Assembly (NCBI GenBank): GCA_029974835.1
Contig: JARKQN010000085.1
Span: 1-55,805, forward strand
Length of the DNA stretch: 55,805 bases
Origin: Bacteroidales bacterium
GTDB lineage: Bacteria; Bacteroidota; Bacteroidia; Bacteroidales; VadinHA17
Direction of reading: 5' to 3'
The notes beneath the pieces are model-generated. The model worked only from the letters and a program-made list of their open reading frames with translations. It made no database searches and was not told the origin of the DNA. Position numbers and translations under genes: made by a program. Shown in pieces: positions 518 to 33,296 of this stretch (position 1 is its first letter; the number at the start of each line of letters is the position of its first letter).

Positions 518-545
518 CCTTCTGAAAGCCGTTTAAATAATATTT

Positions 546-1904: not shown

Positions 1905-1912
1905 CAAACCTA
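1905..1912 (-). promoter_or_regulatory. Candidate -7 box for pgk
   Basis: Read on the minus strand this is TAGGTTTG, a full match to the Bacteroidota sigma-70 -7 consensus TAnnTTTG. It lies about 97 bases upstream of the pgk start. No well-placed -33 TTTG was found. The leader contains short GC-rich palindromes. Confidence 0.4.
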
Positions 1913-2010
1913 CTTAATTTTTGTCAATTTGTGAAGCTGCAAACCTTAAAAGAAGACATGGAATCTTATTTTTAAAGTTCGTATTAATTTAGAAACAGTC
2001 CAAATAACAG

Positions 2011-2018
2011 TATCTTTG
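2011..2018 (+). promoter_or_regulatory. Candidate -7 box for the DUF5916 gene
   Basis: TATCTTTG matches the Bacteroidota consensus TAnnTTTG and is preceded by TTTA at 1988-1991 with 19 bases between. It lies about 50 bases before the chosen ATG at 2067 and supports the internal start over the longer frame beginning at 2016, which would overlap the -7 box. Confidence 0.55.
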
Positions 2019-2066
2019 CATCAAAATTTTTGTCTGCACGTCTTTATTCCTGAAATCAGACTTGAA

Positions 2067-4715: not shown

Positions 4716-4739
4716 CCACGGTAGCATAAATATCATTTT

Positions 4740-4785
4740 GTCATTACCGGGTTTTTGGTTTCCTTTGACCTGACCCGGAAATGAC
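4740..4785 (+). repeat. 13-bp inverted repeat ending 3 bases before the ChaN-like start
   Basis: The left arm at 4740-4752 and the right arm at 4773-4785 are reverse complements at 12 of 13 positions, with a 20-base loop. The right arm stops 3 bases short of the ATG at 4789, so the folded RNA would enclose the ribosome-binding region. No T-tract follows, which argues against a simple terminator for the upstream gene. Confidence 0.6.
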
Positions 4786-4788
4786 ATT

Positions 4789-5664
4789 ATGAAAACATTA
4801 TTTTCCCTATTTCTCCTCGCCTTAACGCCGGCACTCTCTGCCCAGGATAAACCCGCCTACAGGATTTTCAACAGCGAGGGTAAGCCTGTAACTTATGCAG
4901 ATATGATTAAATCTGCCTCAGGCGCAGATGTTGTATTCTTCGGCGAGCTTCACGATGATCCGATTGCTCACTGGCTGGAGCTTGAGGTTTCGAAAAGCCT
5001 TTTTGACCAGAAAAAAGGAAATATTGTGCTTGGAGCGGAAATGTTTGAGACAGACAACCAGCTCCTGCTCGATGAATACCTGAAAGGGGTTTATGACGCT
5101 GCCAGGTTTGAAGCCGAGGCAAAACTGTGGAACAATTATAAAACCGATTACAAGCCGCTGGTGGAATTTGCCAGGGCGAACGGAATTCCTTTCATTGCGA
5201 CCAACGTACCAAGACGCTATGCAAATGTTGTTAACAGGAAAGGATTTGAGGGGCTTGATTCACTTTCGGCTGAAGCAAAAAAATACATCGCACCCCTTCC
5301 TCTGCTTTATGATCCGGAGCTTAAAGGCTACAAGGATATGCTGAAGATGGAAGGGATGGGAGGTCCGATGCAGGCTCATGCCACGGCAAACCTGCCAAAG
5401 GCGCAGGCCCTTAAGGATGCAACAATGGCCCATTTTATTCTAAAGAACAGGGATAACGATAAAATATTTGTACATTTCAACGGTTCATACCATTCAAGTA
5501 ATTTTGAAGGAATTGTCTGGTATCTGCTTAAGGCAAACCCTTCACTTAAAATTTTGACTATTGAAACTGTAAGGCAGAAGGACACATCAGAACCCGGAAA
5601 GGCAAATCTTAAAATTGCATCGTTTATAATAGTTATTCCCGAAACAATGACCCGCACATACTAA
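4789..5664 (+). CDS. ChaN-family (DUF399) putative haem/iron-related protein
   Basis: A 291-residue exported protein with signal peptide MKTLFSLFLLALTPALSA. The mature part carries ChaN/DUF399 hallmarks: VVFFGELHDDPIAH at about residues 48-61 with conserved Glu and His, a central EMFETDNQ segment, and HFNGSYHS near the C-terminus. ChaN of Campylobacter binds haem and is linked to iron uptake; whether this homologue does so is inference. There is no lipobox Cys, so it is probably soluble in the periplasm. It follows the DUF5916 gene by 73 bases and is preceded by a hairpin that could mask its start. Confidence 0.85.
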   Translation: MKTLFSLFLLALTPALSAQDKPAYRIFNSEGKPVTYADMIKSASGADVVFFGELHDDPIAHWLELEVSKSLFDQKKGNIVLGAEMFETDNQLLLDEYLKGVYDAARFEAEAKLWNNYKTDYKPLVEFARANGIPFIATNVPRRYANVVNRKGFEGLDSLSAEAKKYIAPLPLLYDPELKGYKDMLKMEGMGGPMQAHATANLPKAQALKDATMAHFILKNRDNDKIFVHFNGSYHSSNFEGIVWYLLKANPSLKILTIETVRQKDTSEPGKANLKIASFIIVIPETMTRTY

Positions 5665-5673
5665 AACGCCGGG

Positions 5674-6108
5674 TCACTCACTTTTTGTGGTGAATTTCTC
5701 AACGTTCTGCGAGTAAACCTGGGCAGTGTTAATAAGAACATAGGCCTTGAAGAAGTATTGCGTACCGGGCTCGAGACCGGTGAACGGGATTGAGAATATA
5801 CCGGTATCGGGCGGGTGTTTTATGGAGTTTGTGTCGGACGGGTTGAATAACGCCGTTTTTGAAAGCTCAATTCCGTATTCAAGTATCTTCTGGTTGCCCG
5901 TCCAGATAATCCTGCCTTTCAGCAATGCCGAACTGGTTGTAATATCCGCATCCTCCGCCTTCAGCGTGGTTAGTTTTGGCATAAGCACATAATCATCATC
6001 GCATGCAAAAGGAAGGATGAGCAGTGTCAGGAACAACAGCGGGATTATTAATCTGCGGATTAACGGTACAGATCGGTATTTCATGCTTTTGCCTGTTTGC
6101 GGATTCAT
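5674..6108 (-). CDS. Fibronectin-type-III-like lipoprotein
   Basis: A small 144-residue lipoprotein, or 136 residues if it starts at the ATG at 6084, which gives a more compact signal peptide. The signal ends in LPFAC, placing the lipid-attachment Cys at residue 36 (28 from the alternative start), followed by Asp residues (DDDYV), which favour surface or inner-membrane retention. The mature part looks like one Fn3-type beta-sandwich: LKAEDADITTSSALLKGRI, then IEYGIELSKT-like strands and LEPGTQYFFKAYV, the typical G-strand of Bacteroidota Fn3 domains. No catalytic motif is visible. It converges on the ChaN-like gene with 9 bases between the stops. The function is unknown; binding or adhesion is a guess. 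Confidence 0.75.
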   Translation of the reverse strand: MNPQTGKSMKYRSVPLIRRLIIPLLFLTLLILPFACDDDYVLMPKLTTLKAEDADITTSSALLKGRIIWTGNQKILEYGIELSKTALFNPSDTNSIKHPPDTGIFSIPFTGLEPGTQYFFKAYVLINTAQVYSQNVEKFTTKSE

Positions 6109-6170
6109 GGTGACTGGTTTAAACCTGCAAAATAAACAATAAAATCCGTTGTTTCAACAGGGGTTTAAGT

Positions 6171-6206
6171 CTTGCAGGTCGTGCAAGTCATGCAGGTCGT
6201 ACAGGC
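6171..6206. repeat. Four imperfect 9-bp tandem repeats
   Basis: The units CTTGCAGGT, CGTGCAAGT, CATGCAGGT and CGTACAGGC run head to tail in the gap between the Fn3 lipoprotein and tonB. They are non-coding on both strands. Confidence 0.6.
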
Positions 6207-6240
6207 CTTAAAAAAGATCATTGAGGCCTAAAGTGTAAAT

Positions 6241-6290
6241 CTCCCTCGCCCCCTCGCCCTCTCGCCCCCTCGCCCCCTCGCTCCCTCGCC
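6241..6290. repeat. 8-bp tandem repeat (CGCCCCCT), about six units
   Basis: Units of consensus CGCCCCCT run from 6247 to 6286 with variants CGCCCTCT and CGCTCCCT, plus partial copies at both ends. The tract is pure pyrimidine apart from the G of each unit, and lies about 100 bases upstream of the tonB start. The intergenic region 6109-6391 contains this array, the 9-bp array and otherwise AT-rich sequence. Confidence 0.85.
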
Positions 6291-6391
6291 TTTGGCACCA
6301 TATTTGCCCGTTTTAATTAAGAGGCGCCTCTTTAATGAGACAGTAAAGATTGACCTGTAAAACATTTATTAACCGTTAAAAACTGTTTCAT

Positions 6392-7165
6392 ATGAAGAGG
6401 AAAAATGAAAAGGTTCCCGGGTTAGACGAGATAGTCTTCGAGAACCGCAACAAAGAGTACGGAGCATACGATATCCGTAAGCATTACCTGCCGTCGCTTT
6501 CTTACTCGCTGTTAGGCGGAACAGCGTTTTTTATCCTGCTTGTCCTGCTTTTCTCCTTCTCTTCAAGGGGAGATGTAAAAGCAGTGGACAGTAAGGAAAT
6601 AGTTATAGTAATTGAAACTGATTCGACAATCAGGGCGCTGGAGAAAATCATTCCTCCTGATCCCGAACTTCCAAAACCCGAAACCAGATCGTTCAGGTAT
6701 CTGCCCCCTGAGGTTGTTGACACTCTGCTGGAAACAGACATCACACTTGCACCCGTCGGTCTTCTCGACTCTGTAATCAACAAACCTGTTGATGAAGTTA
6801 TAGAACCTGTGGAAGAACCGGATCCTGTTGTGACAGTTGAACCCGAACCCGTTGTGTGGGTGGAAGAGATGCCTGAATTTCCGGGAGGAGAAGCAGCCCT
6901 TTTAAGGTTCATAAATGAAAACGTAAAATACCCCGAAGAGGCAGTGGAGAACAACCTGGAGGGAAGAGTGGTAGTAAGGTTTGTAGTTTCTGCCGATGGC
7001 ACTGTTAAGAGGGCAGAGCTACTGAAAGGTGTACATCCGGTTCTGGACAGCGAGGCCCTGAGAGTTGTATCTCTGATGCCGAAATGGAGACCCGGGAAAC
7101 AAAATGGCACTTCTGTTCCGGTATGGTTCTCGGTTCCTGTGAAATTTGAACTGAAGAGGTACTGA
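6392..7165 (+). CDS. tonB: Energy transducer TonB
   Basis: This inner-membrane protein passes proton-motive force from ExbBD to TonB-dependent outer-membrane transporters such as the SusC homologue in this window. The 257-residue protein has the Bacteroidota N-terminus (FENRNKEYGAYDIRKHY, residues 16-32), one membrane helix at about 36-57, and a long periplasmic spacer rich in Pro, Glu and Val with repeats such as EPVEEPDP (about 105-155). The C-terminal TonB domain (about 160-257) begins EMPEFPGGEAALLRFI and ends in PVWFSVPVKFEL. No exbB or exbD is adjacent, so it is a stand-alone tonB. Two tandem-repeat arrays lie upstream. Confidence 0.95.
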   Translation: MKRKNEKVPGLDEIVFENRNKEYGAYDIRKHYLPSLSYSLLGGTAFFILLVLLFSFSSRGDVKAVDSKEIVIVIETDSTIRALEKIIPPDPELPKPETRSFRYLPPEVVDTLLETDITLAPVGLLDSVINKPVDEVIEPVEEPDPVVTVEPEPVVWVEEMPEFPGGEAALLRFINENVKYPEEAVENNLEGRVVVRFVVSADGTVKRAELLKGVHPVLDSEALRVVSLMPKWRPGKQNGTSVPVWFSVPVKFELKRY

Positions 7166-7211
7166 ATAAATTCCTTCCGGCCGGGAAGGGAGAGATAAAG
7201 CCTTCATTTTA

Positions 7212-7219
7212 TATATTTG
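7212..7219 (+). promoter_or_regulatory. Candidate -7 box for the HExxH gene
   Basis: TATATTTG is a full match to TAnnTTTG, 26 bases upstream of the ATG at 7246. No convincing -33 element was seen. Confidence 0.4.
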
Positions 7220-7245
7220 CCTGGCAGAAATTACCGGAAGGGTTT

Positions 7246-7713
7246 ATGCTTAGGCGTGTCAGACGGCTTGCAGATAAAATAATCAGGGATTCTTTCCCCC
7301 TGCTTCAGGGCACAAGGATCTGTTTCATTGTTGCACCTTTCAGATTTTATGCGCTTTCCCTGTGGATACCGCATATTATCAGGCTTGTGATTATCAGCAC
7401 AAGGGTGAGACAGATGACCGATTTTGTGATTACGGGGATTATTGCCCACGAATTATGCCACCAGGAAAGATATCTGACAATGGGCACGACACGCTACCTC
7501 AGATTTGCGGTCGGTTACCTCTTTTCAGACAAGGCAAGAACCGAAGAGGAGAGGGCCACCGACTTTCTTACCATTGAAAAAGGCTATGCACGCGAACTTC
7601 ATGAGCTTACCCTGATCTCCCGCGCCGATGCACACCATAAAACAATCATCGGCAATTACCTTACCCCTGAGGAAATCATCGGACATGCACTTAAATCAGG
7701 GAAATGGAATTAA
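7246..7713 (+). CDS. Small putative metallopeptidase-like protein with HExxH motif
   Basis: A 155-residue protein I cannot place in a named family. Residues 68-72 read HELCH, a perfect HExxH zinc-metallopeptidase motif preceded by a hydrophobic stretch (FVITGIIA), as in the active-site helix of gluzincins. Thirty residues on, EERATDFL resembles the ExxxD glutamate-ligand segment of that group. The N-terminus is basic and amphipathic with no cleavable signal; hydrophobic runs at about 24-52 could associate with membrane. It lies between tonB and plsC, on the same strand, with its own candidate promoter. Zinc binding and proteolysis are inference from motifs; the protein could equally be a degenerate or regulatory member. 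Confidence 0.65.
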   Translation: MLRRVRRLADKIIRDSFPLLQGTRICFIVAPFRFYALSLWIPHIIRLVIISTRVRQMTDFVITGIIAHELCHQERYLTMGTTRYLRFAVGYLFSDKARTEEERATDFLTIEKGYARELHELTLISRADAHHKTIIGNYLTPEEIIGHALKSGKWN

Positions 7714-7845
7714 AAACCCAAAGCCGTCGGGAACCAATTACTGCGGCAAGGTATTGTATCAAAACAAATAATATTTACATTTAAGCCGGGCATTAAAACC
7801 TGTTCAGCTACGGACCTGACCAGCTACATACCATCCAGGCAAAGA

Positions 7846-8601
7846 GTGCACAGGGTACTTTCAGTACCTGCATTCGGAATCCTCTACCTTTTTACCGCAT
7901 TAATGGTTTTGGCGGGATTGCCTTTTCTTTACATGAGAATAAAACCGGTAGTGAGATCCATGATGCGTTTCTGGGCCAGAGGTATATTTTTTCTCCTTGG
8001 AAAGAAAATTGAAGTAAAGGGAAGGGAGAACATCCGAAACACAAACCGTTATATCCTTATTGCCAACCACTCCAGCCTTTTTGATATTGTTGCCATCGTG
8101 TCGGTTATTCCGGATATTGCATGGTTTGGTCATGAGCGTCTTATGAAAATACCCGTATTCAGGCAGGTGCTTGTCCTGACGGATTACATTCCGATGAGAA
8201 AAACGACAGTCAGGAACACTAAAGAAATGCTCAATGAGCTTCTGTCCCGTTCCCGAAACCGAAACATCGCCATTTTCCCCGAGGGTACTCGCACAACCAA
8301 TGGAAAAATCAATGATTTCTACAGGGGGTTTATCATACTTCTCCGCACAACCAGCATTAACATCGTGCCTGTTACCTTAAACGGTTTTTTCAGGTTTAAA
8401 CCTAAAATCAGGTCATATATCGATTTCAGTGCACACCTTCAAATGGTAATCCATCGTCCCATTGAGAGTGACGAACTTGTAAACCTTACTGATAGTGAAA
8501 TAGCATCAAAAGTCAGGCAAATTATTGAATCTGCCCTGGTTGAAGACCATTCGATTCCACTTGAAGAGATTAAAATGAACCCCCAAATAATTGAAAAATG
8601 A
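7846..8601 (+). CDS. plsC: 1-acyl-sn-glycerol-3-phosphate acyltransferase (PlsC family)
   Basis: Transfers an acyl chain to lysophosphatidic acid to make phosphatidic acid at the inner membrane. An N-terminal membrane segment spans about residues 5-30. Acyltransferase motif I is NHSSLFD (74-80, catalytic His75 and Asp80), and motif III is FPEGTRT (144-150). The GTG at 7846 is the best visible start; the frame stays open upstream to 7714 without an ATG, so the true start could be a little earlier. The stop overlaps the start of the lipid kinase gene by 4 bases, which indicates co-translation of two phospholipid-related enzymes. Confidence 0.88.
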   Translation: MHRVLSVPAFGILYLFTALMVLAGLPFLYMRIKPVVRSMMRFWARGIFFLLGKKIEVKGRENIRNTNRYILIANHSSLFDIVAIVSVIPDIAWFGHERLMKIPVFRQVLVLTDYIPMRKTTVRNTKEMLNELLSRSRNRNIAIFPEGTRTTNGKINDFYRGFIILLRTTSINIVPVTLNGFFRFKPKIRSYIDFSAHLQMVIHRPIESDELVNLTDSEIASKVRQIIESALVEDHSIPLEEIKMNPQIIEK

Positions 8602-9518
8602 GTAAGGATCCATGGGTTTTTATTGTGAACCCCGTGGCAGGTAAAGGGTATGCTGCCGAAACAGCGCAGGTAATAAAAGCTGAAGCTGCTTCAAGACAAA
8701 AAGAGGTTGTAATTGACTTTACCAGAAGCAAGGGCCATGCATCGGAGTTATCGGAGAAGTATTACAATGAAGGATATAAGTTCATTATAGGAGTGGGGGG
8801 CGACGGAACCTTTAACGAAGTAGCAACGCCCCTGGCAGGTAAGGGGGACGTTGTTACAGGCCTGGTGGCGGCAGGTACAGGAAATGATTTTATCCAGATA
8901 CTTGGTTTCCCCGACCGGTTCGGCACCAAAGAGTGGGATGCTCTTTTTAAGGCAGATACCAGGGCCATGGACGCCGGCTCCTGCAACGGCAGGTTCTTCT
9001 TCAACGGCATGGGACTCGGCTTCGATGCCCAGGTGGCGGCAGAAAACTATACACCCGAAGGCGAAGTTAAACCCGGAGGGAAAAACAAATACATCTGGCA
9101 TATTTTAAAAACCATCCTTTTTTACAGGGAGAAGAGGATGATCGTAATCAATAACGGCGAGCGCAGTGAAACGGATTGTTTCATAAACACCGTATCGAAC
9201 GGACGAAGATATGCCGGGGGATTCTTCCTTACACCTCAGGCTGTCGCAAACGACGGACTACTGGATGTGTGCAGCGTAAGAAAGATAGGGCTTTTCAGGA
9301 GACTGAGAATACTTGCAATGGTTCCGAAGGGAAGTCATATCTCCCACAAAAGTGTGAACTATTACAAGACCTCTCACCTTGAGCTTGAGTTTCCGATGAG
9401 GGTGCCCTATCACCTCGACGGAGAGCTCTATTTCTCCGACAGGTTTGAGATAAAGGTAATTCCCGGGGCCCTGAATGTGATATATAACCCCGGCGGCGGG
9501 CACTTTTTTAACGATTAA
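8598..9518 (+). CDS. Diacylglycerol kinase-family lipid kinase (YegS/DagK-like)
   Basis: A 306-residue member of the DAGKc-domain lipid kinases, which phosphorylate diacylglycerol or related lipids with ATP. The N-terminal catalytic domain begins FIVNPVAGKG, with the nucleotide-binding signature VGGDGTFNEV at 66-75 and AAGTGNDF further on. The C-terminal beta-sandwich includes NGMGLGFDAQVA and DGELY near the end. The ATG overlaps the plsC stop (ATGA), so the two are one operon: PlsC makes phosphatidate and the kinase could recycle diacylglycerol to it. The exact substrate is not readable from the sequence. Confidence 0.9.
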   Translation: MSKDPWVFIVNPVAGKGYAAETAQVIKAEAASRQKEVVIDFTRSKGHASELSEKYYNEGYKFIIGVGGDGTFNEVATPLAGKGDVVTGLVAAGTGNDFIQILGFPDRFGTKEWDALFKADTRAMDAGSCNGRFFFNGMGLGFDAQVAAENYTPEGEVKPGGKNKYIWHILKTILFYREKRMIVINNGERSETDCFINTVSNGRRYAGGFFLTPQAVANDGLLDVCSVRKIGLFRRLRILAMVPKGSHISHKSVNYYKTSHLELEFPMRVPYHLDGELYFSDRFEIKVIPGALNVIYNPGGGHFFND

Positions 9519-9597
9519 TCATTTTTCCCCTTCGTGATTATAAGTCCGGTCTGCACCTGAATTTTCCATAAGTGGAAGATTTCTGAATTGTAAAAAG

Positions 9598-9605
9598 TAT
9601 ATTTG
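9598..9605 (+). promoter_or_regulatory. Candidate -7 box for the DUF1080 gene
   Basis: TATATTTG matches TAnnTTTG and lies 26 bases upstream of the ATG at 9632. No clear -33 element is present. Confidence 0.4.
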
Positions 9606-9631
9606 TATGTTACTAACCAATCTATAATAGT

Positions 9632-10372
9632 ATGAAAACAAAAATAGCTGCTTATTTATTGCCTCTTTTCGCCGGGCTGCTTATTACCGGACAGGCCTGC
9701 ACACAGCCGGTTAATAAGCTTACCGGGAAAGAAAAGAAAGAAGGCTGGGTGCTTCTTTTTAACGGAAAAGACTTTACCGGATGGCGACAGTACAACGGTA
9801 CAGCCATGCCGGCCAACTGGAAGATTGAGGACAACGCCATGAAGGTGTTTACCGGTGAGGGCCGTAAACCCGGACAGGGTGCCGGAGGAGATATTATTTA
9901 CGCAGCAAAGGAATTCAGCAATTTTGAACTTTCGATCGACTGGAAGACTGAAAAAGCGGGAAACTCAGGAATCTTCTATAACGTAAGGGAGGTTAAGGGG
10001 CAACCCATCTATGCCTCATCTCCCGAAGTTCAGATTCTTGATAATATTGATGCTACCGATAACAAAATTGACAGTCATCTGGCAGGGTCTCTTTATGACA
10101 TGATAGCGGCAGACCCCAAGACGGTAAAACCCGCAGGGCAGTGGAATACAATTGTGATAAGGGTGAAGGACGGAAAGGTGACCCATACCCAGAACGGGGT
10201 AAAAGTTGTGGAATATGAACTATGGACCCCGAAATGGGATGAGATGGTGCAGAACAGCAAATTCAAAACCTTTCAGGGTTTTATTGAGGGGATACCGAAA
10301 AAAGGATACATTGGTCTGCAGGACCACGGCTATGCCATCTGGTTCAGGAATATCAAGATAAGGGAGCTGTAA
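9632..10372 (+). CDS. DUF1080 (3-keto-disaccharide hydrolase-like) lipoprotein
   Basis: A 246-residue exported lipoprotein: signal ends ITGQAC with Cys23. The mature region is a single concanavalin-like beta-sandwich of the DUF1080 family, with the hallmark GWVLLFNGKDFTGWRQYNG, the central segment FELSIDWKTEKAGNSGIFYNV, EVQILDN, and the C-terminal GYIGLQDHGYAIWFRNIKI. Family members act on, or bind, oxidised disaccharides and other glycans; the particular substrate here is unknown. It converges on a GH43-like gene with 67 bases between stops, which fits a small glycan-processing neighbourhood. Confidence 0.92.
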   Translation: MKTKIAAYLLPLFAGLLITGQACTQPVNKLTGKEKKEGWVLLFNGKDFTGWRQYNGTAMPANWKIEDNAMKVFTGEGRKPGQGAGGDIIYAAKEFSNFELSIDWKTEKAGNSGIFYNVREVKGQPIYASSPEVQILDNIDATDNKIDSHLAGSLYDMIAADPKTVKPAGQWNTIVIRVKDGKVTHTQNGVKVVEYELWTPKWDEMVQNSKFKTFQGFIEGIPKKGYIGLQDHGYAIWFRNIKIREL

Positions 10373-10439
10373 GAACTTTCTGCAACCCGTCAGAGTTTTA
10401 GGTAGATATCCTGGTTTTCAAATTCCGGGCAGGGGGGTG

Positions 10440-11552
10440 TTACTTTTTGCCTGCCGGCACGGTGCTAATCTTCCAGTAATCCTCCAATGCTTTAAGCTCC
10501 TTGCTGGTAAGGTGGATCACTGCGCCATGCTTGGGGCGCTCGAAATTGGTCCCTTTCATCACTCCTTCGTTGAAGTGTCCGAGGTTAGTGTAATTTACAA
10601 AGTCGGAGGTTTCGCTGAAGCCCATATTGTTTGGCCTTGCACCGTAGACGTCATACATCAGCACCCACCTGTCGGTTCCAAGCCGCCTGAAAAGGTTCGG
10701 CGCTTCGGTTGAAACTTTTTCGGGATCAATACGGTTGGATGTTACTGTATAACCCTGGTTGATTTTGTCGGAAACTCCATGGAAAATCTTTGCATCGGAC
10801 ACAATATACAAATGATATTTGTCGCCCACTTTAGTAATGTCGCCATCAATTCCTCCGCCATCATATAATCGTTCAGGCTTTGTTTCCAGCCTTGTAAACT
10901 CATCGTTGGCATAGGAATAGTAAATATGGCTGTCTCCGTTTTTTATTCTGATGGTGAAATATACCATCATTTTGCCCTTCTTCTCATCATATATTGTTTC
11001 GGGCGCCCATGAACTTCCTATATCTCCCAGTTCGGGAAAGGCTTTATCAACCCTGAAATCGGAGTGGGTCCAGTGGATGAGATCGTACGATTTCATCATT
11101 ACTATTGCCCGGTTGTTTCCCCAGCCGTACTCCTCAAGAGGCCTTTCCCACTGTGTGCTGCGGTGACCTGCACGCTGGCCGAAAATATGCAGGTCGGTCA
11201 TGGCAAGGTAAAACCCGCCGTCGGGACCGCGTGCAATATGGGGATCCCGGACGCCCTTCTGCCCGGCGAGCTTTGTCCCGTCGAAAATAAAATCTCCACC
11301 GTTAAGGTCGGTAAATGTGTACCCGTCGCGGCTGATGGCCATATATGCCGACTGTGTCTGATCCTTGAAATAAACCATCAGGTAACCTGCCAGCTCTTTC
11401 TCCTTCGGCATCCTGGCTTTTTTGGGCTTCTGGAGTTCCGGAACTATTATTATGCCTGGTTTGACAGCCGCTTCATTACCTGTCTGGGGAAAAAGTGTTG
11501 TCGTGCAGAAAAGGGCTAACGCCGTAATCGATGTTGTAACGTATAAATTCAT
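10440..11552 (-). CDS. Family-43-like glycoside hydrolase, exported
   Basis: A 370-residue protein with an N-terminal signal sequence (cleavage near FPQ) and a five-bladed-propeller pattern of the GH43 clan. Candidate catalytic residues are Asp103 in VRDPHIARG (general base), the acidic residue of SSWAPETIYD (pKa modulator, here Glu where Asp is more usual), and Glu in STEAPNLFRR (general acid). GH43 enzymes release arabinose, xylose or galactose from plant-type glycans. The change in the second motif and the lack of a specificity-defining neighbour leave the substrate open. Transcribed towards the DUF1080 gene. Confidence 0.82.
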   Translation of the reverse strand: MNLYVTTSITALALFCTTTLFPQTGNEAAVKPGIIIVPELQKPKKARMPKEKELAGYLMVYFKDQTQSAYMAISRDGYTFTDLNGGDFIFDGTKLAGQKGVRDPHIARGPDGGFYLAMTDLHIFGQRAGHRSTQWERPLEEYGWGNNRAIVMMKSYDLIHWTHSDFRVDKAFPELGDIGSSWAPETIYDEKKGKMMVYFTIRIKNGDSHIYYSYANDEFTRLETKPERLYDGGGIDGDITKVGDKYHLYIVSDAKIFHGVSDKINQGYTVTSNRIDPEKVSTEAPNLFRRLGTDRWVLMYDVYGARPNNMGFSETSDFVNYTNLGHFNEGVMKGTNFERPKHGAVIHLTSKELKALEDYWKISTVPAGKK

Positions 11553-11728
11553 AATTCTGTATAGGTTTAATTATCAGGATTAATCTGATTTCATTAAGAG
11601 GTAAATATATTGAATAATCGGTAAATGAAGAATAAAAGGAAATTACGGGGAAAGTGTGCCGGACTCTCAATCGTTCCTGGTTCAGCAAGCTGACTTCGGG
11701 CTGATAACCCGTGGGGTGATCTGGTTTT

Positions 11729-11838
11729 GGGTGACCTTTCAGCAAAATCTTTTGTGCCTTCGGGAGAGTTTCGGAGGATTGCTCCTCCCGACAAGTCGGG
11801 ACTCGCGATCCGGTCTGGGGTGACCTTTCAGCAAAATC
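11729..11838. repeat. Two copies of a 21-bp repeat resembling the tRNA-Cys 3' flank
   Basis: An identical 21-mer, GGGTGACC then TTTCAGCAAAATC, sits at 11729-11749 and 11818-11838. Its second half reappears inverted at 11940-11955, where it is the real 3' end and tail of tRNA-Cys, differing by a two-base gap. Confidence 0.85.
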
Positions 11839-11870
11839 CCTGCTCCGCTTTGCGGAGGCGGGATTTTTTT
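11835..11870 (+). terminator. Strong hairpin with T-tract, plus orientation
   Basis: An AAAATCCC arm pairs with GGGATTTT around an inner CTCCGC/GCGGAG stem, followed by seven T on the plus strand. No plus-strand gene precedes it. It looks like an inverted copy of the tRNA-Cys terminator rather than a terminator with its own client. Confidence 0.55.
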
Positions 11871-11907
11871 ATTCATCCCTCAGTCCAGCAAGCTGACTTC
11901 GGGCTGA

Positions 11908-11945
11908 TAAAAAAATCCCTCTGCACTTTGTGCAGCAGGGATTTT
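11908..11945 (-). terminator. Rho-independent terminator of tRNA-Cys
   Basis: Read on the minus strand directly after the tRNA: an AAAATCCCT arm, inner CTGCAC/GTGCAG pairing, an AGGGATT arm, then a run of seven T. Position and orientation fit termination of tRNA-Cys. Confidence 0.8.
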
Positions 11946-11949
11946 GCTG

Positions 11950-12020
11950 AGGTCGGTGGCGGATTCGAACCGCCGTTCCCGGTTTTGCAGACCGATTCCT
12001 AGCCACTCGGACAACCGACC
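11950..12020 (-). tRNA. tRNA-Cys (anticodon GCA)
   Basis: The 71-base gene reads on the minus strand with acceptor stem GGTCGGT/ACCGACC, D-arm containing GAGTGGCTAGG, an anticodon stem-loop with CTGCAAA (anticodon GCA), and T-arm GGCGGTTCGAATCCGCC. The discriminator base is U73, the expected identity element for cysteine tRNA. The 3' CCA is not encoded (TCA follows). A -7 box lies just upstream and a hairpin terminator directly downstream. Confidence 0.96.
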
Positions 12021-12034
12021 ATACAACGAGACTG

Positions 12035-12042
12035 CAAAATTA
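12035..12042 (-). promoter_or_regulatory. Candidate -7 box for tRNA-Cys
   Basis: TAATTTTG on the minus strand is a full match to TAnnTTTG and lies 15 bases upstream of the tRNA 5' end. Confidence 0.5.
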
Positions 12043-12113
12043 ATAAAAATCCACAAATTCCCCTTTTTACTTCCTCCTTTTATCTTTTTGCTTTTTTCTT
12101 TTGTCTTTTATCT

Positions 12114-12140
12114 CACGAAAAAAGGCGGGCAACCGCCTTT
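12114..12140 (-). terminator. Rho-independent terminator of the S46 peptidase gene
   Basis: AAAGGCGG at 12121-12128 and CCGCCTTT at 12133-12140 form an 8-bp stem with a GCAA tetraloop, followed on the minus strand by a run of T. It sits 8 bases past the peptidase stop. Upstream at about 12060-12113 is a polypyrimidine tract with no other signal. Confidence 0.85.
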
Positions 12141-12147
12141 TTATTTT

Positions 12148-14304
12148 TTACATCACTACTGTCATCTCGTCAACCAGGTGTCTGGCCCCTGCATAGATAT
12201 CCATCACCCACAATACATATCTTATGTCGACAACAATGGTTCTCTGAAGATCGGGCTCAAAGGCCACATCTCCGCTCATCGCCTCCCAGTTGCCGTCAAA
12301 TGCCAGACCTATAAGTTCTCCGCTGCCATTGAGAACAGGACTGCCGGAGTTGCCCCCGGTGATATCGTTGTTGGTGGTGAAACAAACAGGCAGATAGCCT
12401 TTCGGGGAAGCATACCTGCCATACTCCTTCCTGTCGTACAGGTCAATAAGCCTCTGCGGAACATCAAACTCATAATCTCCCGGTTTGTATTTCTCCATAA
12501 CACCTTTCAGTGTCGTATAATATTTATAGGTTACTCCGTCACGGGGATCATAATCCAGCACCTGCCCGTAAGTGAGCCTCATGGTTGAGTTGGCATCCGG
12601 ATACCGGGTTTTATCGGGCGCCATCTCCATAAGCGCTGCCATCCAGAGCCTCCTTCCCTTTGTGAGATCGGGATCGTACTGCCTCAGGTTTGCGCCAACC
12701 TCGGAACTGATTTTTGAGATTGAATTAGAGGTTATATACACCGGGTCGCTTTCAAGAACCTTGAGGTTAGGCTTGTCGAGAAAAGCCAGAAGCCTGGCCT
12801 GGTCGGAGAAGATCGACCTGTCAAACATATCGTCAACAAACTTATCGACATCGCCTTTAAATTTCTTATCAACGATGTTTGCGTAAAAATCGGGATGAAA
12901 TTTAGCCGGCACGTCGGCCCTGTAAAGTTTCATCATGGCTTTTACTGCCTTCTTATCGGTGGGTGCGCTGTAATCTTTATAGAAAGATTCGGAAATGTTT
13001 TTCCTGATATTGTCTGACAGATCGGCGAGTCTCTTCTGATCTGCCGTTTTCATGGCGCCAATAAGGGCCGATGCAACCTGGCTGAGCTGGAGTATCTCGC
13101 ATCCCTGCGAGAAACATTCGCTGATATATTGCTGTGCATTTGCATATTCTGCCCTTTTCCCGGTGGCATTCTTTATAAGGGAGAGAGCTTCACCGTATTT
13201 CTCCTTCCGTGCCGGGTCAGCATTGACCCACCTGTTAAACTGATTTTCAATTTCTTCTTTCTCTGCCTTTACGTTAAGCTTTTCCAGTCCGGCCTTCTGT
13301 CCTATGGAATATTTCCAGTAGTTTGAAGAGTTGCTGTACTTGGAAGCATACTGGATATTGATTTTCGGATCGGCCTGCATGTCAGCCATAAGAATATCCT
13401 GCCTGATGCCCCTTATCTTAATCCTGTTAGGATGAGTTATCTTAAGGAGTTCATCAACCTCCCATGAAGTGTAGTAGCGCATCGTTCTGCCGGGGTAACC
13501 CAGTATCATGGCAAAATCGCCCTTGTTGAGATCTTTTATCGAGACAGGCAGGTAATGCCTTGGTTTGAGAGGTACGTTATCCTTTGAATAGGGAGCAGGT
13601 TTGCCGTCAGGGCCTGTGTATACCCTGAACACGCTGAAATCGCCTGTGTGGCGAGGCCATTCCCAGTTGTCGGTGTCGAAACCGAATTTTCCTATTGAGG
13701 AGGGGGGTGCACCGACAAACCTCACATCGTTGTATCTCTCGTAAACAAACAGGTAAAACTGGTTCCCGTTGTAAAATGTGGATACTGTTGCGGAATACCA
13801 TGTTCCTTCGGTGGCCTTTCTCTGTATGGCCATCCGGGCTTCGTTGATGGCAGTGTTCCTGTCGTTCTCACTCATCCCGTCCTTAACTGCCGCCAGAACC
13901 TGTGATGTCACATCCTCAACGCGAATAAGAAAAGTTACCGAAAGGCCCGGATTAGGGAGTTCCTCTTCCTTTGTCTTTGCCCAGAAGCCGTCTTTCAGGT
14001 AATCGTGTTCTACCGAGCTGTGGCTCTGAATCTGTCCGTATCCGCAGTGATGGTTGGTAAGAAGGAGGCCCTGCGGGGAGACGATTTCACCCGTGCAGCC
14101 ACCGCCGAAAATCACAATGGCATCCTTTAGACTCGCCCTGTTGATACTGTAAATATCCTCGGCTGAGAGTTTCAGCCCCATTTCAGTCATTTTGCCCACA
14201 TTGAGTTTTTCGATCAGTGGCAGCAGCCACATCCCTTCATCGGCCAGCAGTCTTGAAGAAAGACCTGTTATAACGATGAACAGAAGTACAAAAATTCGTT
14301 TCAT
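12148..14304 (-). CDS. S46-family dipeptidyl-peptidase, DPP7-like
   Basis: A periplasmic serine exopeptidase that removes dipeptides from oligopeptides, part of Bacteroidota peptide scavenging. The ATG at 14304 starts a proper signal peptide; the longer frame to 14376 would add 24 implausible residues and overlap rnhB. The 718-residue length fits S46. Catalytic triad: His86 in TNHHCG, Asp in the DNWEWPRHTGDF segment, Ser653 in GGNSGSP. Eighteen residues past the Ser, position 671 in FDGNWEA is Gly; in DPP11, which prefers acidic P1 residues, this position is Arg, so the Gly points to a DPP7-type preference for hydrophobic P1. It has its own promoter and terminator. Confidence 0.93.
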   Translation of the reverse strand: MKRIFVLLFIVITGLSSRLLADEGMWLLPLIEKLNVGKMTEMGLKLSAEDIYSINRASLKDAIVIFGGGCTGEIVSPQGLLLTNHHCGYGQIQSHSSVEHDYLKDGFWAKTKEEELPNPGLSVTFLIRVEDVTSQVLAAVKDGMSENDRNTAINEARMAIQRKATEGTWYSATVSTFYNGNQFYLFVYERYNDVRFVGAPPSSIGKFGFDTDNWEWPRHTGDFSVFRVYTGPDGKPAPYSKDNVPLKPRHYLPVSIKDLNKGDFAMILGYPGRTMRYYTSWEVDELLKITHPNRIKIRGIRQDILMADMQADPKINIQYASKYSNSSNYWKYSIGQKAGLEKLNVKAEKEEIENQFNRWVNADPARKEKYGEALSLIKNATGKRAEYANAQQYISECFSQGCEILQLSQVASALIGAMKTADQKRLADLSDNIRKNISESFYKDYSAPTDKKAVKAMMKLYRADVPAKFHPDFYANIVDKKFKGDVDKFVDDMFDRSIFSDQARLLAFLDKPNLKVLESDPVYITSNSISKISSEVGANLRQYDPDLTKGRRLWMAALMEMAPDKTRYPDANSTMRLTYGQVLDYDPRDGVTYKYYTTLKGVMEKYKPGDYEFDVPQRLIDLYDRKEYGRYASPKGYLPVCFTTNNDITGGNSGSPVLNGSGELIGLAFDGNWEAMSGDVAFEPDLQRTIVVDIRYVLWVMDIYAGARHLVDEMTVVM

Positions 14305-27689: not shown

Positions 27690-27721
27690 TTTGCAGGTTA
27701 ACTTTAAAAAGACTAATTTTG
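27690..27721 (+). promoter_or_regulatory. Promoter upstream of the caspase/SpoIIE locus
   Basis: TTTG at 27690-27693, a 20-base spacer, then TAATTTTG at 27714-27721. Both boxes and the spacing match the Bacteroidota sigma-70 pattern TTTG-N19-21-TAnnTTTG, one of the best examples in the window. The ATG of the protease gene is 37 bases downstream. Confidence 0.7.
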
Positions 27722-27758: not shown

Positions 27759-30107
27759 ATGAAGAGCAGATTGTTTATCCTTTCGGTTTTATTGTCACTG
27801 TTTACGTTTTCAGTGGTCTCGGGTCAGAGCGGTAAAAAGTTTGTCAAAGCCGGGAACGAGTTTCTGTCCAGCAAAAAATATGATGATGCTGTTGTTCAGT
27901 TTACAAACGCAATAACTGCCGAACCGACAAATGCCTCATACTACTATATGAGAGGCAACGCCTACGAACTTGCCGGCAAACTGAATGAAGCCAGGGCAGA
28001 TCTGGAGAAGGCGCTTGTTTTCAAGGCCAAGGATGTTCCTTCCCTGATAAGTCTCGGCCGCGTTTGCAACAAGATGGGAAGTTACGAAGATGCACTCAAC
28101 TGCCTTAACAGGGCAAAAGCCATCGAAAAGCTCAACAAGGAACTCTACCCCGAAAAGGTGATTTCTCTTCTCGGCCTCGGACTTTACGACCAGGCCCTCA
28201 GGGCTTCCGATACCGCACTTATTATAAAAGAGACGGCGCAGAATTTCTATTACAGGGGCAAGGTATATGTGAAGCTTAACAATTATCCCCTTGCACAGAA
28301 GGAGTTCGAAAAGGCAATTGCAAAAGATAAAAATTTTGCCGACGCCAGGCTTGAGCTGGCAGATCTCTTCATCAGAAACAACAAACAGAAAGAGGCTCTC
28401 GAGCAGATCAACAATGTTCTCACCGCCGATCCGCGGAATGCCTATGCATATATTGTCAGGAGTAAAATTTATAAGACAAATCTCGATTACCCGAATGCAA
28501 TAAACGATGTCTCAAAAACTATCCTTATTGACCCTGAGAATGCAGAGTATTACATGATAAGAGGCACATATTACCAGGAATTCAACCAGCACCTTAATGC
28601 CATTGCCGATTTCTCAAGATACATCACCCTGAAACCCGACGACCCCGACGGATATTTCGCCAGGGCAAAATCGTACCAGGAAATGATGAACTATGAGAAG
28701 GCAATCGAAGATTATAACAAAATAACGGTTCTTTCAGAATTTGACGCCAGGGCAAGAAAGATGCTGAAGGAAGCACAGGACAGGCTGTACGAACTCAACC
28801 GTGAAAATGCAGCCCCTGAAATCAATATTGCATCACCCTCGGTAAGTGCTGACGGCAAAATGGAAATAAGAGGGAATGCTGCCAGCATTACAATCTCGGG
28901 TAATATAAAGGAAAAAAGCAGAATTGAGGAGATGACTATCAACGGTAATAAGGTCCTCGTGGGTGAGAAGAAAAATGACGTAAGCGAATTTATTGCCACT
29001 GTCGACATACGCGACGTTGACAAGATCACTATCTCCGCAAAGGATGAATACAACAACCAGAAGACACTCGAATTCAACCTGGTGAGAACCGAGATCAACC
29101 CGCCCAGGATATCAATTGTGGCTCCGTATTCATCCGACGACGGGCAGATTTACCTTGACAATAACTCACCGCGTCTTGCCATTGAGGGTAAAATTACGGA
29201 TGAAAGCAGGATAAAATCAATTTTTATTGAAGGTGTTACGGCCGGCTATGCCGTCAATGAACTCAACCCGGCTTTTACAGCCACCATCGATATAATGAAC
29301 AAAAACAAAATTACAGTAGTGGCCGAGGATATTTACGGAAATGTGCAGGAAACCGAATTCAGGCTGAACAGGGAAGGAGCAACGCTCTCCGCTTCGAACC
29401 CGATGGGAAAAACATGGGTGGTCTTCATCGAGAACTCAAAATACACCTCTTTTGCTCCGCTCGACGGACCGGTAAAGGATATCAACCTTATGATAAGGGC
29501 TCTCTCAAATTACCAGATCCACCAGTTTGTTCACAAAAAAGACCTTACTAAGGCGGAAATGGAAAAATTCTTCTCCATCGAACTGAGAGACCTGATTAAA
29601 AGCAACCAGGTTAAATCGCTTCTTATCTGGTATGCCGGACATGGCAAGTTCATCAATGATGTCGGTTACTGGATTCCGGTTGACGCAAAGAGGGATGATG
29701 AATTCACTTATTTCAACCTTAACACCCTCAGGGCATCGATGGAAACGTACATCAACTACCTTACACATACCCTGGTGGTTACAGATGCCTGCGAATCGGG
29801 GCCAAGCTTTTACCAGGCGATGCGCTCTGAAATCAAACAGAGGAGCTGCGACGATTATACAGCCACCCAGATGAAATCGGCACAGGTTTTTTCATCGGCA
29901 GGCTATGAACTGGCAGTCGACGACTCACAGTTCACAAGGACATTCGCAAACACTCTTGCCAACAACCCGAAGTCATGTATCCCGATTGAAGAAGTGGTGG
30001 TGAACGTAACCAAGGCCGTGTCGGGTAACAACCAGCAAAAACCCAAATTCGGGAAAATCACCGGCCTCCGCGATGAGGATGGTACATTCTTCTTCATAGC
30101 CAAATAA
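27759..30107 (+). CDS. TPR-repeat caspase-like (C14) protease, exported
   Basis: A 782-residue protein. The signal peptide ends near SVVSGQ. About eight TPR units follow (residues 28-340), e.g. AEYYMIRGTYYQEFNQHLNA. Two related Ig-like beta-domains (about 355-540) repeat the themes APEINIASPSVSADGK and PPRISIVAPYSSDDGQ. The C-terminal 240 residues are a caspase-like p20 fold: TWVVFIENSKY, catalytic His628 in WYAGHGK, and Cys678 in VTDACESG. Both catalytic residues are intact, with the DxCxSG context typical of metacaspase-like proteases. Export would place the protease in the periplasm or on the outer membrane. It is 6 bases upstream of a propeller-SpoIIE phosphatase gene, so the two are one transcription unit. 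The substrate is unknown. Confidence 0.92.
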   Translation: MKSRLFILSVLLSLFTFSVVSGQSGKKFVKAGNEFLSSKKYDDAVVQFTNAITAEPTNASYYYMRGNAYELAGKLNEARADLEKALVFKAKDVPSLISLGRVCNKMGSYEDALNCLNRAKAIEKLNKELYPEKVISLLGLGLYDQALRASDTALIIKETAQNFYYRGKVYVKLNNYPLAQKEFEKAIAKDKNFADARLELADLFIRNNKQKEALEQINNVLTADPRNAYAYIVRSKIYKTNLDYPNAINDVSKTILIDPENAEYYMIRGTYYQEFNQHLNAIADFSRYITLKPDDPDGYFARAKSYQEMMNYEKAIEDYNKITVLSEFDARARKMLKEAQDRLYELNRENAAPEINIASPSVSADGKMEIRGNAASITISGNIKEKSRIEEMTINGNKVLVGEKKNDVSEFIATVDIRDVDKITISAKDEYNNQKTLEFNLVRTEINPPRISIVAPYSSDDGQIYLDNNSPRLAIEGKITDESRIKSIFIEGVTAGYAVNELNPAFTATIDIMNKNKITVVAEDIYGNVQETEFRLNREGATLSASNPMGKTWVVFIENSKYTSFAPLDGPVKDINLMIRALSNYQIHQFVHKKDLTKAEMEKFFSIELRDLIKSNQVKSLLIWYAGHGKFINDVGYWIPVDAKRDDEFTYFNLNTLRASMETYINYLTHTLVVTDACESGPSFYQAMRSEIKQRSCDDYTATQMKSAQVFSSAGYELAVDDSQFTRTFANTLANNPKSCIPIEEVVVNVTKAVSGNNQQKPKFGKITGLRDEDGTFFFIAK

Positions 30108-30113
30108 TTGTAA

Positions 30114-33100
30114 ATGAAAATAATCTCTATTCCTTTCGCTGAAAGGATCACCAGAAAAATACTGGTGCTCCTTTTTTTGTCATTATTCTGCCTGGCAGCA
30201 AGGACACAGACTCTCTTCTTTGAGAAATTCGGAGTGGAGGAGGGACTGGGGTCATCAAAAGTTTATACCGTAATACAGGACAGACACGACTTTGTCTGGC
30301 TTGGAACCGAGAGCGGAGCGGCAAGATTTGACGGTAACAGATTCGTGAATTTCGGAAGCCTCAACGGCCTCTCAGCAGGAGGGGTGAAAAGCCTTTTTGA
30401 AGACACAACCGGCCGTATATGGTTCGGACATCTGAACGGTGGTATCAGCTGGTACGACGGAATAAAATTCTCGAGAGCCCGTATCGACACCCTCACAATA
30501 ACCGGCGATATCACAGGGATAAGCCAACTCGGCAATGATTTCTGGATTACGACATCCTCAAACGGAGCATTCCGTACCCAACTGCCCCCGCAGGGAGCCA
30601 CAGTACTTAAGGGCAGGCATTATACAGGGCAGGAGGGTCTCAGCGACCAGATTTTCAGTCTTTATATCGACAGAAATAATAATCTCTTCTGCATTACGGA
30701 TGCTTTTATTAAAAAGTATAACCCGGAAAAGGATATCTTCGAAACATATTCGCCTCCCGGCCTCACAACATATTTCAATGTTGTGTCCATGTTCCAGGAC
30801 ACCAAAGGTAACTACTGGTACGGCCTTCATAACGGAGGTCTCTATATGCAGGATGCCGTTGCCGGGGAAATGAAAATATATGACATCCTTAACGGCCTTT
30901 CAAGAATGTTTGTTTCATGCTTTGCCGAAGACTACAAAGGAAACGTCTGGATAGGAACATTCGGAGGCGGCGTTACCTTATACAGTGAGGGAAAACTTAA
31001 AATCTACAACAGAAGCAACGGCCTTAATTCACTCAATATCCTTAATATTTTTGAAGACAGGGAGAAGAATATCCTTATTTCGGATTATTACAACGGACTT
31101 AGTATTTTCAAGGGAGATCACTTCGTAACATATAATACCGAAGATATACTTCCCGACAGGAATGTATGGGCAATATCGCGCGACAATGCCGGGAGATACT
31201 GGTTCGGAACCAATAACGGCATTTCGGTTTACGATCCGGCGGCGAAACAGGGCAGCCGGGTGAAAATTTACAACGAGGCAACGAGGCTTATCGGCAACAC
31301 CGTCAGATTCATCATCCCTGGAGGTGACGGTACCATGTGGGTCGGAACCAAAGGATTCGGGGTTTACAGGTATGAAATGAAAACAGAAAAATTCAATGCC
31401 GACCCCGAAATTAATGCTATGCTCCCTGTCGACAGGGTGGTGACAGCCCTCTCTGCCGATCAAAGAAAAAGGATATGGATAGGAACCAACGATGGCCTGG
31501 CAGTATGGGATCCTGCCGCCAGGGAGGGCTCCGTTTACACACAGGGCAAAGGACTGGCCGGAAATATGATAAAATCGGTACTGTGCGACAGCAAGGGTAC
31601 TGTCTGGGCCGGTTCGGAAATGAGAAGCGGGCTATCAAAACTTACCCCCGGTTCAGACAATTTCACAATAGTAAACATAGGGGAAGGTGTAGTTCCCCAG
31701 TCGCTGGAAGAATCTCCCGACGGAACAATCTGGATAGGTACAGTAAGCGGACTGCTGGCTCTTAAGAATGATTCGGTCATGTTTACACTTACTGAAAATG
31801 ACGGATTGCTGTCGGGAAATATCAAGTCCCTTTTATCCGACAGGGGCAGGTATCTCTATATAGGTACAAACCTGGGACTTAACAGGTACGATACGGAAAC
31901 AGGAGTAATATCCTCATTTACCAAATACAGTGGTTTCACGGGCATTGAAGCTCTCCAGAATGCAGCCTTCAGGGAATCTGACGGCAAACTCTGGTTCGGT
32001 ACCGCCAACGGGGCTACCATGCTCGACCCTGCAAAATTACCGCCGGTGGCCGAATCCCCAAAGGTCTATATTACCGGTATGGAAGTTAATAACCAGCCGA
32101 GGGAAATGAAAGCCGGGATGAAACTGAGCTACCGGGAAAAATCAATTAACTTTCAATACTACAGCATCAGCCTTACAGATCCGAAGTCGGTAAGATACAA
32201 GGTGATGCTTAAAGGAGCCGATTCCGACTGGCGGCCGGTTACGGACCAGACGGTGGCATTCTGGTCGGGGCTTTCTCCCGGCCATTATACACTGATGGTC
32301 AAAGCCGTTAACAGCTCAGGCGTATGGAGCGAAAAGGCAGTGGAGTTTCCGTTTGTCATTAAACCGCCCTTTTACCTATCCCCATGGTTCATAATCACCA
32401 TGACCCTGCTTATAATCACAGGTGTAATTGTTTATATAAAGGTAAGAGAACGAAACCTTATCAGGGAAAAAAGAATTCTTGAGGCAAAGGTTGCCGAACG
32501 TACTGCCGAACTGGTGCAGAAGAACATTATCATTGAGGAGAAGAACCGCGATATTACAGCCAGTATCCGTTATGCCGAACGCATCCAGAGGGCAATGCTT
32601 CCAAGAGATGACACTTTTGAGGAAACATTCGTCCTGTTCCTGCCGAAGGATATCGTGAGCGGCGACTTCTACTGGATGTACGACAACGGGGATGTTAAAC
32701 TGCTGGCTGCAGTCGACTGTACCGGCCATGGAGTGCCCGGAGCATTCATGTCAATCATCGGACATAACTCACTCAACAAAGTGGTGAGGGAATATGGGCT
32801 CATAAGGCCGTCGGCAATACTCGACCAGCTTAATATCGAGGTTATCAGGTCAATTATCCAGAGCCAGGAGAAGGGAATACAGGACGGTATGGACCTTTCC
32901 CTCATCGCTTTCAACCGTCAGAAATTCACACTCGAATTTGCAGGTGCCTATAACCCGCTTTACCTTGTCAGAAACGGCGAAGTGATCGTGCATAAGGCCG
33001 ACAGGTTCCCGATAGGTATGGCAACTCTTGAACAGAAGAAGAGTTTCTCCAACGTGGAGGTGCCCATCCGGCCGGGCGACATGATTTACATGTGCTCCGA

Positions 33101-33296
33101 CGGGTATGCCGACCAGTTTGGCTCCCCCGAAGGGAAAAAATACAAGGTGGGTAATATAAAGAAAATCATCTCGGAGATTTACAACCTGCCGGTAAACGAG
33201 CAGAAACAGATTCTTGAAAAGGAGATAATGGACTGGAAGGGCGATCTGCCCCAGGTTGATGATATCCTGTTTATCGGGATGAGATTATTGCCTTAA
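30114..33296 (+). CDS. Periplasmic beta-propeller sensor with SpoIIE (PP2C) phosphatase
   Basis: A 1060-residue single-pass membrane signalling protein. An N-terminal signal anchor is followed by about fourteen propeller repeats (WIGTFGGGV-, WFGTNNGIS-like; residues 35-640), then a Y_Y_Y domain (about 675-755) of the kind found in hybrid two-component regulators. A membrane helix spans about 758-780, then a coiled-coil linker (ILEAKVAERTAELVQ) and a cytoplasmic SpoIIE/PP2C domain (about 830-1060). Metal-binding Asp residues are present in DIVSGDFYW, DCTGHGVPGAF (Asp868), CSDGYADQ and QVDDILF, so it is predicted active. It should dephosphorylate a protein in response to a periplasmic signal; no anti-sigma partner is adjacent. 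It overlaps the convergent LOG gene by 4 bases. Confidence 0.93.
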   Translation: MKIISIPFAERITRKILVLLFLSLFCLAARTQTLFFEKFGVEEGLGSSKVYTVIQDRHDFVWLGTESGAARFDGNRFVNFGSLNGLSAGGVKSLFEDTTGRIWFGHLNGGISWYDGIKFSRARIDTLTITGDITGISQLGNDFWITTSSNGAFRTQLPPQGATVLKGRHYTGQEGLSDQIFSLYIDRNNNLFCITDAFIKKYNPEKDIFETYSPPGLTTYFNVVSMFQDTKGNYWYGLHNGGLYMQDAVAGEMKIYDILNGLSRMFVSCFAEDYKGNVWIGTFGGGVTLYSEGKLKIYNRSNGLNSLNILNIFEDREKNILISDYYNGLSIFKGDHFVTYNTEDILPDRNVWAISRDNAGRYWFGTNNGISVYDPAAKQGSRVKIYNEATRLIGNTVRFIIPGGDGTMWVGTKGFGVYRYEMKTEKFNADPEINAMLPVDRVVTALSADQRKRIWIGTNDGLAVWDPAAREGSVYTQGKGLAGNMIKSVLCDSKGTVWAGSEMRSGLSKLTPGSDNFTIVNIGEGVVPQSLEESPDGTIWIGTVSGLLALKNDSVMFTLTENDGLLSGNIKSLLSDRGRYLYIGTNLGLNRYDTETGVISSFTKYSGFTGIEALQNAAFRESDGKLWFGTANGATMLDPAKLPPVAESPKVYITGMEVNNQPREMKAGMKLSYREKSINFQYYSISLTDPKSVRYKVMLKGADSDWRPVTDQTVAFWSGLSPGHYTLMVKAVNSSGVWSEKAVEFPFVIKPPFYLSPWFIITMTLLIITGVIVYIKVRERNLIREKRILEAKVAERTAELVQKNIIIEEKNRDITASIRYAERIQRAMLPRDDTFEETFVLFLPKDIVSGDFYWMYDNGDVKLLAAVDCTGHGVPGAFMSIIGHNSLNKVVREYGLIRPSAILDQLNIEVIRSIIQSQEKGIQDGMDLSLIAFNRQKFTLEFAGAYNPLYLVRNGEVIVHKADRFPIGMATLEQKKSFSNVEVPIRPGDMIYMCSDGYADQFGSPEGKKYKVGNIKKIISEIYNLPVNEQKQILEKEIMDWKGDLPQVDDILFIGMRLLP

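Follow-up and report, generated by a model that had tools for sequence, protein, structure and literature searches.

A caspase-domain protein and a propeller-sensor phosphatase form a conserved gene pair in the Bacteroidia

The window analysed here, a stretch of 55,805 nucleotides, is one entire contig (JARKQN010000085.1) of the Bacteroidales genome GCA_029974835.1 (2.9 Mb, 127 contigs, 92% complete), and on its forward strand it carries two neighbouring genes, here named CASP and PHOS. CASP (27759-30107) encodes a predicted exported protein of 782 amino acids made up of tetratricopeptide repeats (TPRs), two Ig-like domains and a caspase domain, and PHOS (30114-33296) encodes a protein of 1060 amino acids with a double propeller, a Y_Y_Y domain, a membrane helix and a SiaA-like PP2C (SpoIIE) phosphatase domain. 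Both open reading frames, which lie on the same strand and are separated by 6 bases, were confirmed as the original prediction had described them. Here we report that the pairing of these genes is not accidental. On balance, and with some reserve, we favour the reading that CASP and PHOS make up one envelope signalling module of the Bacteroidia, in which CASP would act outside the cytoplasm as the input partner for a sensor whose output can be exchanged.

The pairing was first followed in 295 genomes of the same order, which were searched with the Ig-caspase part of CASP. Besides the window, this search returned 30 full-length CASP matches with 43-86% identity, other caspases being set apart at about 30%. 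The order matches and the best 80 of 245 relatives from a species collection, a choice that makes the species-collection set lean to close kin, together formed a family of 111 distinct sequences, referred to as family I. A relative of PHOS was present within two same-strand genes of 100 of these 111 caspases; the gap was 20 bases or less in 80/109 paired loci (duplicates still counted), with three pairs overlapping by 4 bases, and in the named set 76 of the 77 loci with room for a neighbour were paired. An independent search with PHOS placed most of its top matches beside CASP relatives. Moreover, all 31 genomes of the 295-genome sample that encode a phosphatase of the PHOS family (phosphatase I, or PHOS-I) lie among the 34 that encode a family I caspase (caspase I), both memberships having been assigned by hand from score gaps and the partial phosphatase genes of G099 and G279 resting partly on adjacency. 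The possibility, raised with the original prediction, that homologues of the two genes are rarely adjacent came out the opposite way, in these counts as well as in the persistence of the pair among different flanks (see below). Tandem caspase genes were also seen, before PHOS in L102, L103, L104 and L156, and in L107, which ends at a contig edge and where the copy lying upstream encodes a short protein (258 amino acids) with the caspase domain only.

Chance adjacency was ruled out by two controls and a tree. Among the more distant caspase loci of the order, a propeller-phosphatase was found within two genes in 8/82, a set in which L079 and L080 had been chosen for their visible adjacency and which otherwise covered 80 of 84 listed places. 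In a caspase tree that leaves out the named loci and sequences below 100 bits or 170 amino acids, all 8 paired distant caspases fell into a single clade of 16 members apart from family I, and none of the remaining 65 non-family-I sequences was paired. The phosphatases of this second paired caspase clade form a clade of their own, of 8, apart from PHOS-I. Since two caspase clades thus go with two phosphatase clades, the association was either gained twice, or is old and has often been lost. In the reverse control, no caspase was detected within three genes of any of 41 selected propeller-phosphatase genes, which came from 40 of 107 listed places (four known caspase neighbours were excluded and 35 other places left out) and three of which were PHOS-I genes, unlinked or at a contig edge.

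These data also bear on the view that the adjacency is inherited synteny with no functional coupling, which we regard as highly improbable. The gene order recX-prmC-ribD-CASP-PHOS-LOG does recur in many close relatives, and the caspase and sensor trees agree partly (r 0.82, with 0.24 as the best of 500 permutations; 48/89 splits in common, 92 distinct pairs), an agreement that is expected from vertical descent alone too. Further from the window, however, the pair was found without its familiar surroundings. In a sample of the class, 51/295 genomes gave a match at E 1e-18, a count that covers the window genome itself and some genomes whose match is a more distant caspase, and 20 loci from outside the order were chosen from the top of this list and from the family f170. 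In 13 of them a propeller-phosphatase lay directly downstream of the caspase, and in 2 a propeller-cyclase sensor. In none of the 15 paired class loci did any of the window's six synteny-block genes lie within 4 genes, and 10/28 paired order loci, some of them on short contigs, likewise lacked all six. Inherited synteny also sits poorly with the pairing of a second caspase clade with a second phosphatase clade, with the short caspase-only versions (261-263 amino acids) that adjoin PHOS in L073 and L075, and with the retention of the pair when its output is swapped.

This swap was observed in f170, where the gene after the caspase relative encodes a propeller-Y_Y_Y protein with a class III cyclase domain at its C-terminal end (Guanylate_cyc in Pfam, at 3e-56 and 2e-55). 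The caspase and propeller-cyclase matches were adjacent in all 10 f170 genomes with a caspase match, with gaps of -3 to 254 bases. Since the pairing outlives the phosphatase and, in the f170 copies read, the catalytic cysteine of the caspase as well, the extracytoplasmic half is probably the surface that these pairs share and on which the two proteins would be coupled.

Turning to the proteins themselves, the Pfam matches of CASP comprise TPRs and Peptidase_C14 (PF00656, residues 553-763, whole-protein E 6e-16). Its AlphaFold model (28-sequence alignment, mean pLDDT 84.5) consists of the helices of a TPR solenoid at residues 25-346 (27831-28796, forward strand, as are all features given here), the strands of two beta-sandwich, Ig-like domains at residues ~354-444 and ~450-537 (28818-29369), and a caspase domain at residues 552-782 (29412-30104), with residues 630-649 modelled at low confidence. 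Of the layout first proposed for CASP, the TPR and caspase parts were recovered by Pfam, the Ig label corresponds to the modelled strands and a weak Big_3_3 match under the Pfam cut-off, and a signal-like N-terminal sequence suggests that the protein is exported, presumably to the periplasm. The VIA-align list for the model was filled by TPR structures, in keeping with the solenoid and with no bearing on the caspase domain, for which sequence comparison at E values up to 0.1 returned no solved structure. With its PF00656 domain and conserved His-Cys dyad, CASP is a predicted caspase-like (C14) peptidase. Both dyad residues, His628 (29640-29642) and Cys678 (29790-29792), are intact as had been claimed; the first is His in 108/111 and the second Cys in 111/111 distinct family I sequences from the order and named sets. 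In L159 the dyad His is missing, apparently through a frame error, and the caspases of L330 and L340 carry DACESG.

For PHOS, Pfam returned Reg_prop (5e-41), Y_Y_Y (8e-13) and SpoIIE (residues 864-1057, 7e-17), and the AlphaFold model (30-sequence alignment, mean pLDDT 85.3) contains propeller strands, a long helix at residues 757-793 and a PP2C domain, the Pfam domains and the modelled helix together bearing out the predicted architecture. The Reg_prop propeller blades (30219-32063), presumed to be periplasmic, are related by sequence to the hybrid two-component sensors 3v9f and 4a2l. They are followed by the Y_Y_Y domain (32175-32363, PF07495), by the helix at residues 757-793 (32382-32492), assigned from sequence as a membrane helix with the start of a coiled coil, and by the PP2C domain (32625-33284). 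The Pfam listing contained no histidine kinase or receiver domain on PHOS, and SpoIIE instead. Residues 784-1057 matched 6k4e at 1.2e-37, and the NCBIfam SiaA model gave 3.9e-56, under its cut-off. 6K4E is the structure of the PP2C domain of SiaA, the active-site residues of which are given, in the available text of PMC7647112, as D457, D474, G477, D600, G601 and D653. An active site of this type appears to be present in PHOS, the one-to-one residue match having been read from motifs and spacing. The metal-binding aspartates, which the original prediction had described as intact, are D851, D868, D996, D1049 and D1050, and they are invariant in 30/30 sequences; together with G871 and G997 they are also kept in 80/80 distinct paired relatives, a count restricted to full-length PHOS partners. 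The phosphatase domain of PHOS is of the same kind as that of SiaA, and PHOS is not SiaA itself.

In Pseudomonas aeruginosa, according to the same text, SiaA and SiaB act in balance on T68 of SiaC, a protein whose fold resembles anti-sigma factor antagonists (PMC7647112). A four-gene operon CASP-PHOS-SiaB-SiaC was found at three loci (L057, L070 and L072, in the genomes G159, G049 and G134 of two families); in these operons SiaB scored over the NCBIfam family cut-off, and SiaC under the equivalog cut-off and over that of Pfam. Each of the three genomes has one SiaB and one SiaC match, namely the operon copies. In the window SiaB and SiaC are not beside PHOS; its genome has 6 SiaC and 3 SiaB matches, with a SiaB-SiaC pair on contig 88, and the best SiaC has Thr68 in an NTSS motif. 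On that contig (L291, positions 1-13000) genes for an RlmL-like methyltransferase, for an S41 protease and for GMP synthase precede the pair, and a STAS-domain gene is located ~6 kb upstream. A likely target of the PHOS phosphatase is SiaC; a sigma-factor partner switch is another possible phospho-switch, given the RsbW-like kinase and the STAS proteins that the window genome also encodes.

If CASP and PHOS form one module, CASP would be a periplasmic protein whose TPR/Ig-like part would recognise a signal or a partner, and whose caspase domain would bind or cleave either PHOS itself, at its propeller/Y_Y_Y half, or one of the regulators of PHOS. The membrane helix and the coiled coil would then relay the signal to the PP2C domain; this domain would strip phosphate from SiaC, opposing SiaB, and leave SiaC free for its effector. 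We infer that CASP and the propeller are both periplasmic and that CASP and PHOS are in direct contact, and likewise the direction of signalling and SiaC as the target.

The original prediction had treated the two genes as one unit behind a near-perfect promoter at 27690-27721, upstream of CASP, and the pattern TTTG-N20-TANNTTTG does match there exactly. Since the window holds 3 such matches when 1.3 are expected (17/100 shuffles reach 3), this match weighs little by itself, and it was dropped as sole evidence for one unit. A relaxed pattern (TTG...TANNTTTG) was present upstream of CASP in 42/93 distinct paired loci, compared with 4/93 control stretches (the final 205 bases of the caspase gene, just ahead of PHOS, which are coding and differ in base composition) and with a mean of 1.7 and a maximum of 6 when the upstream stretches were shuffled 50 times by single bases. 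These counts favour, and do not prove, a single promoter serving both CASP and PHOS.

Several observations weigh against a single module with CASP as its input. Eleven family I loci are unpaired, three of them at contig ends or first of a tandem and eight of them real; G037 and G035 have both genes, unlinked, and in G125, G228 and G284 caspase I occurs with no phosphatase I in the genome. At least one of the six synteny-block genes is kept nearby in 71/77 paired named loci, which are therefore not independent. Outside the order, 5 of the 20 loci are unpaired (the upstream neighbours of the unpaired caspases L340, L343 and L344 being housekeeping-like by eye), and flanks, as judged by gene sizes, are common to L328 and L331 and to L334 and L335, so that the 13 paired loci are not all independent. 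As for the link to the Sia proteins, PHOS scored 190.9 bits on the NCBIfam SiaA equivalog model, far under the cut-off of 700. SiaB/SiaC genes lie within 5 genes in 4/37 paired loci with room, and at the fourth of these, L333, they are encoded on the other strand and the NTSS motif is absent. SiaC is present in 33/34 caspase-I genomes versus 89/261 others, but it is also present in 28/32 genomes with only other caspases, for which reason its co-occurrence lends weak support and was dropped as specific evidence. Finally, L069 has Leu for the dyad His and is still paired, and in f170 the caspase-like proteins of L345 and L346 keep the His, have Ala for the Cys and end soon after it, the caspase match ending in the same region in the other eight f170 genomes.

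Since these two cyclase-linked caspases without Cys and the L069 caspase are all paired, proteolysis is not essential everywhere. The original prediction had proposed a joint sensing module of a phosphatase and a regulated protease; the pairing supports the joint module, and the Cys-less relatives of the cyclase lineage suggest that 'regulated protease' may be too strong. Two of the loci mentioned above have further features. At L333 (genome G728), CASP and PHOS are followed by a second PP2C protein (646 amino acids) and by convergent SiaC and SiaB genes. G284 is the only caspase-I genome without SiaC; its caspase I (L076) has Gln for His628, and the genome has neither PHOS-I nor a detected SiaB, a state that possibly reflects joint decay of the pathway.

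The state of the dyad also bears on an alternative in which CASP is a protease effector and not an input: PHOS would sense the signal and act through SiaC or an anti-anti-sigma factor, and the co-expressed CASP would process or clear envelope proteins. Such an arrangement, which we consider rather unlikely, would be consistent with the retention of the dyad throughout most of family I, with promoter-like sites that lie upstream of CASP and not before PHOS, and with the RsbW-like kinase and STAS proteins of the window genome, which make a phospho-switch other than SiaC possible. However, the two Cys-less caspases beside cyclase sensors remain paired, and a free effector would presumably need no fixed sensor partner across orders.

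The sortase PorU has a caspase-like fold and belongs to a different family of peptidases. The pair might serve in secretion or surface assembly in the manner of PorZ-PorU, with the propeller binding glycan, the caspase-fold protein processing cargo and the phosphatase domain reporting, although we find this quite improbable. PorZ, which has a double propeller, interacts with PorU in a ligand-dependent way, as stated in the available part of PMC8545088, and so provides a precedent for a propeller protein that binds a peptidase partner, which counts in favour of the signalling module proposed above as well. Moreover, the PHOS propeller scores on the PorZ model of NCBIfam (7e-22; 77.6 bits, under the cut-off of 260), and L259, in a sister clade of the PHOS phosphatases, has a PorP/SprF gene three genes upstream. 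Yet CASP showed no type IX C-terminal domain in Pfam at E up to 0.001, the propeller likeness is generic, and PHOS has a predicted membrane helix and a phosphatase domain, whereas PorZ has neither and is located at the cell surface. This sister clade, L259 included, holds 19 genes on the tree. At L259 (1617-5043) the PorP/SprF gene, a PKD/PD40 gene and a gene for a secreted protein of ~330 amino acids with no Pfam match precede the phosphatase; similar upstream gene sizes recur in the clade, in which only L259 was fully checked with Pfam and a PorP-like gene was recognised by eye at L245 (8246-10226).

Compared with known systems, the pair resembles in its phosphatase domain the SiaABCD threonine phosphorylation pathway of P. 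aeruginosa: PHOS is a membrane sensor with a SiaA-like PP2C domain, SiaB and SiaC family genes share its operon in three relatives, and the Thr68 motif is found in the best SiaC of the window genome. It differs in the propeller/Y_Y_Y sensor, in having a caspase-domain protein first in the operon, in that no SiaD was seen adjacent and, in the window, in the separation of SiaB/SiaC from PHOS. The sensor half of PHOS is related to that of the Bacteroides hybrid two-component systems, which have a double propeller and Y_Y_Y, but in PHOS-type sensors the place of the histidine kinase is taken by a PP2C phosphatase, or by a cyclase in one family, and the caspase partner is fixed. CASP shares the caspase p20 fold and His-Cys dyad with orthocaspases and metacaspases, and TPRs are reported with pseudo-orthocaspases of one type (PMC6426788); unlike these proteins, it is predicted to be exported and has Ig-like domains and a dedicated sensor gene, and no such role is described in the available portion of that paper. 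The EACC1-caspase conflict systems, as outlined in the accessible text of PMC7159879, also consist of two genes, for a caspase component and a membrane protein; CASP, however, reached 34.9 bits on the EACC1-associated caspase model, which has a cut-off of 140, and its neighbour is a sensor phosphatase. A role in anti-phage defence was rejected, PADLOC giving two weak matches for CASP (a PrimPol model at 2e-4, located in the TPR region, and a caspase model at 5e-4) and none for PHOS. Judged by titles and the starts of abstracts among the matches listed, the open-licence literature, outside which lie most subscription papers and all bioRxiv preprints, contained no description of a caspase paired with a propeller-SpoIIE sensor.

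We tentatively put forward a wider possibility, in which caspase-fold proteins would be dedicated extracytoplasmic co-receptors that control propeller sensors with exchangeable output, acting as active proteases in most lineages and as Cys-less binders in at least one, with the SiaB/SiaC switch as the output in most and a class III cyclase in one family. If this is true, caspases would have a signalling role outside the cytoplasm that is not tied to cell death. To our knowledge the role of most bacterial caspase homologues is still open, and a fixed sensor partner, the candidate target SiaC and a natural swap of output accompanied by loss of the Cys give one branch of them a specific, testable function. 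The pairing also suggests a possible wiring for a large class of propeller-SpoIIE sensors of the Bacteroidota.

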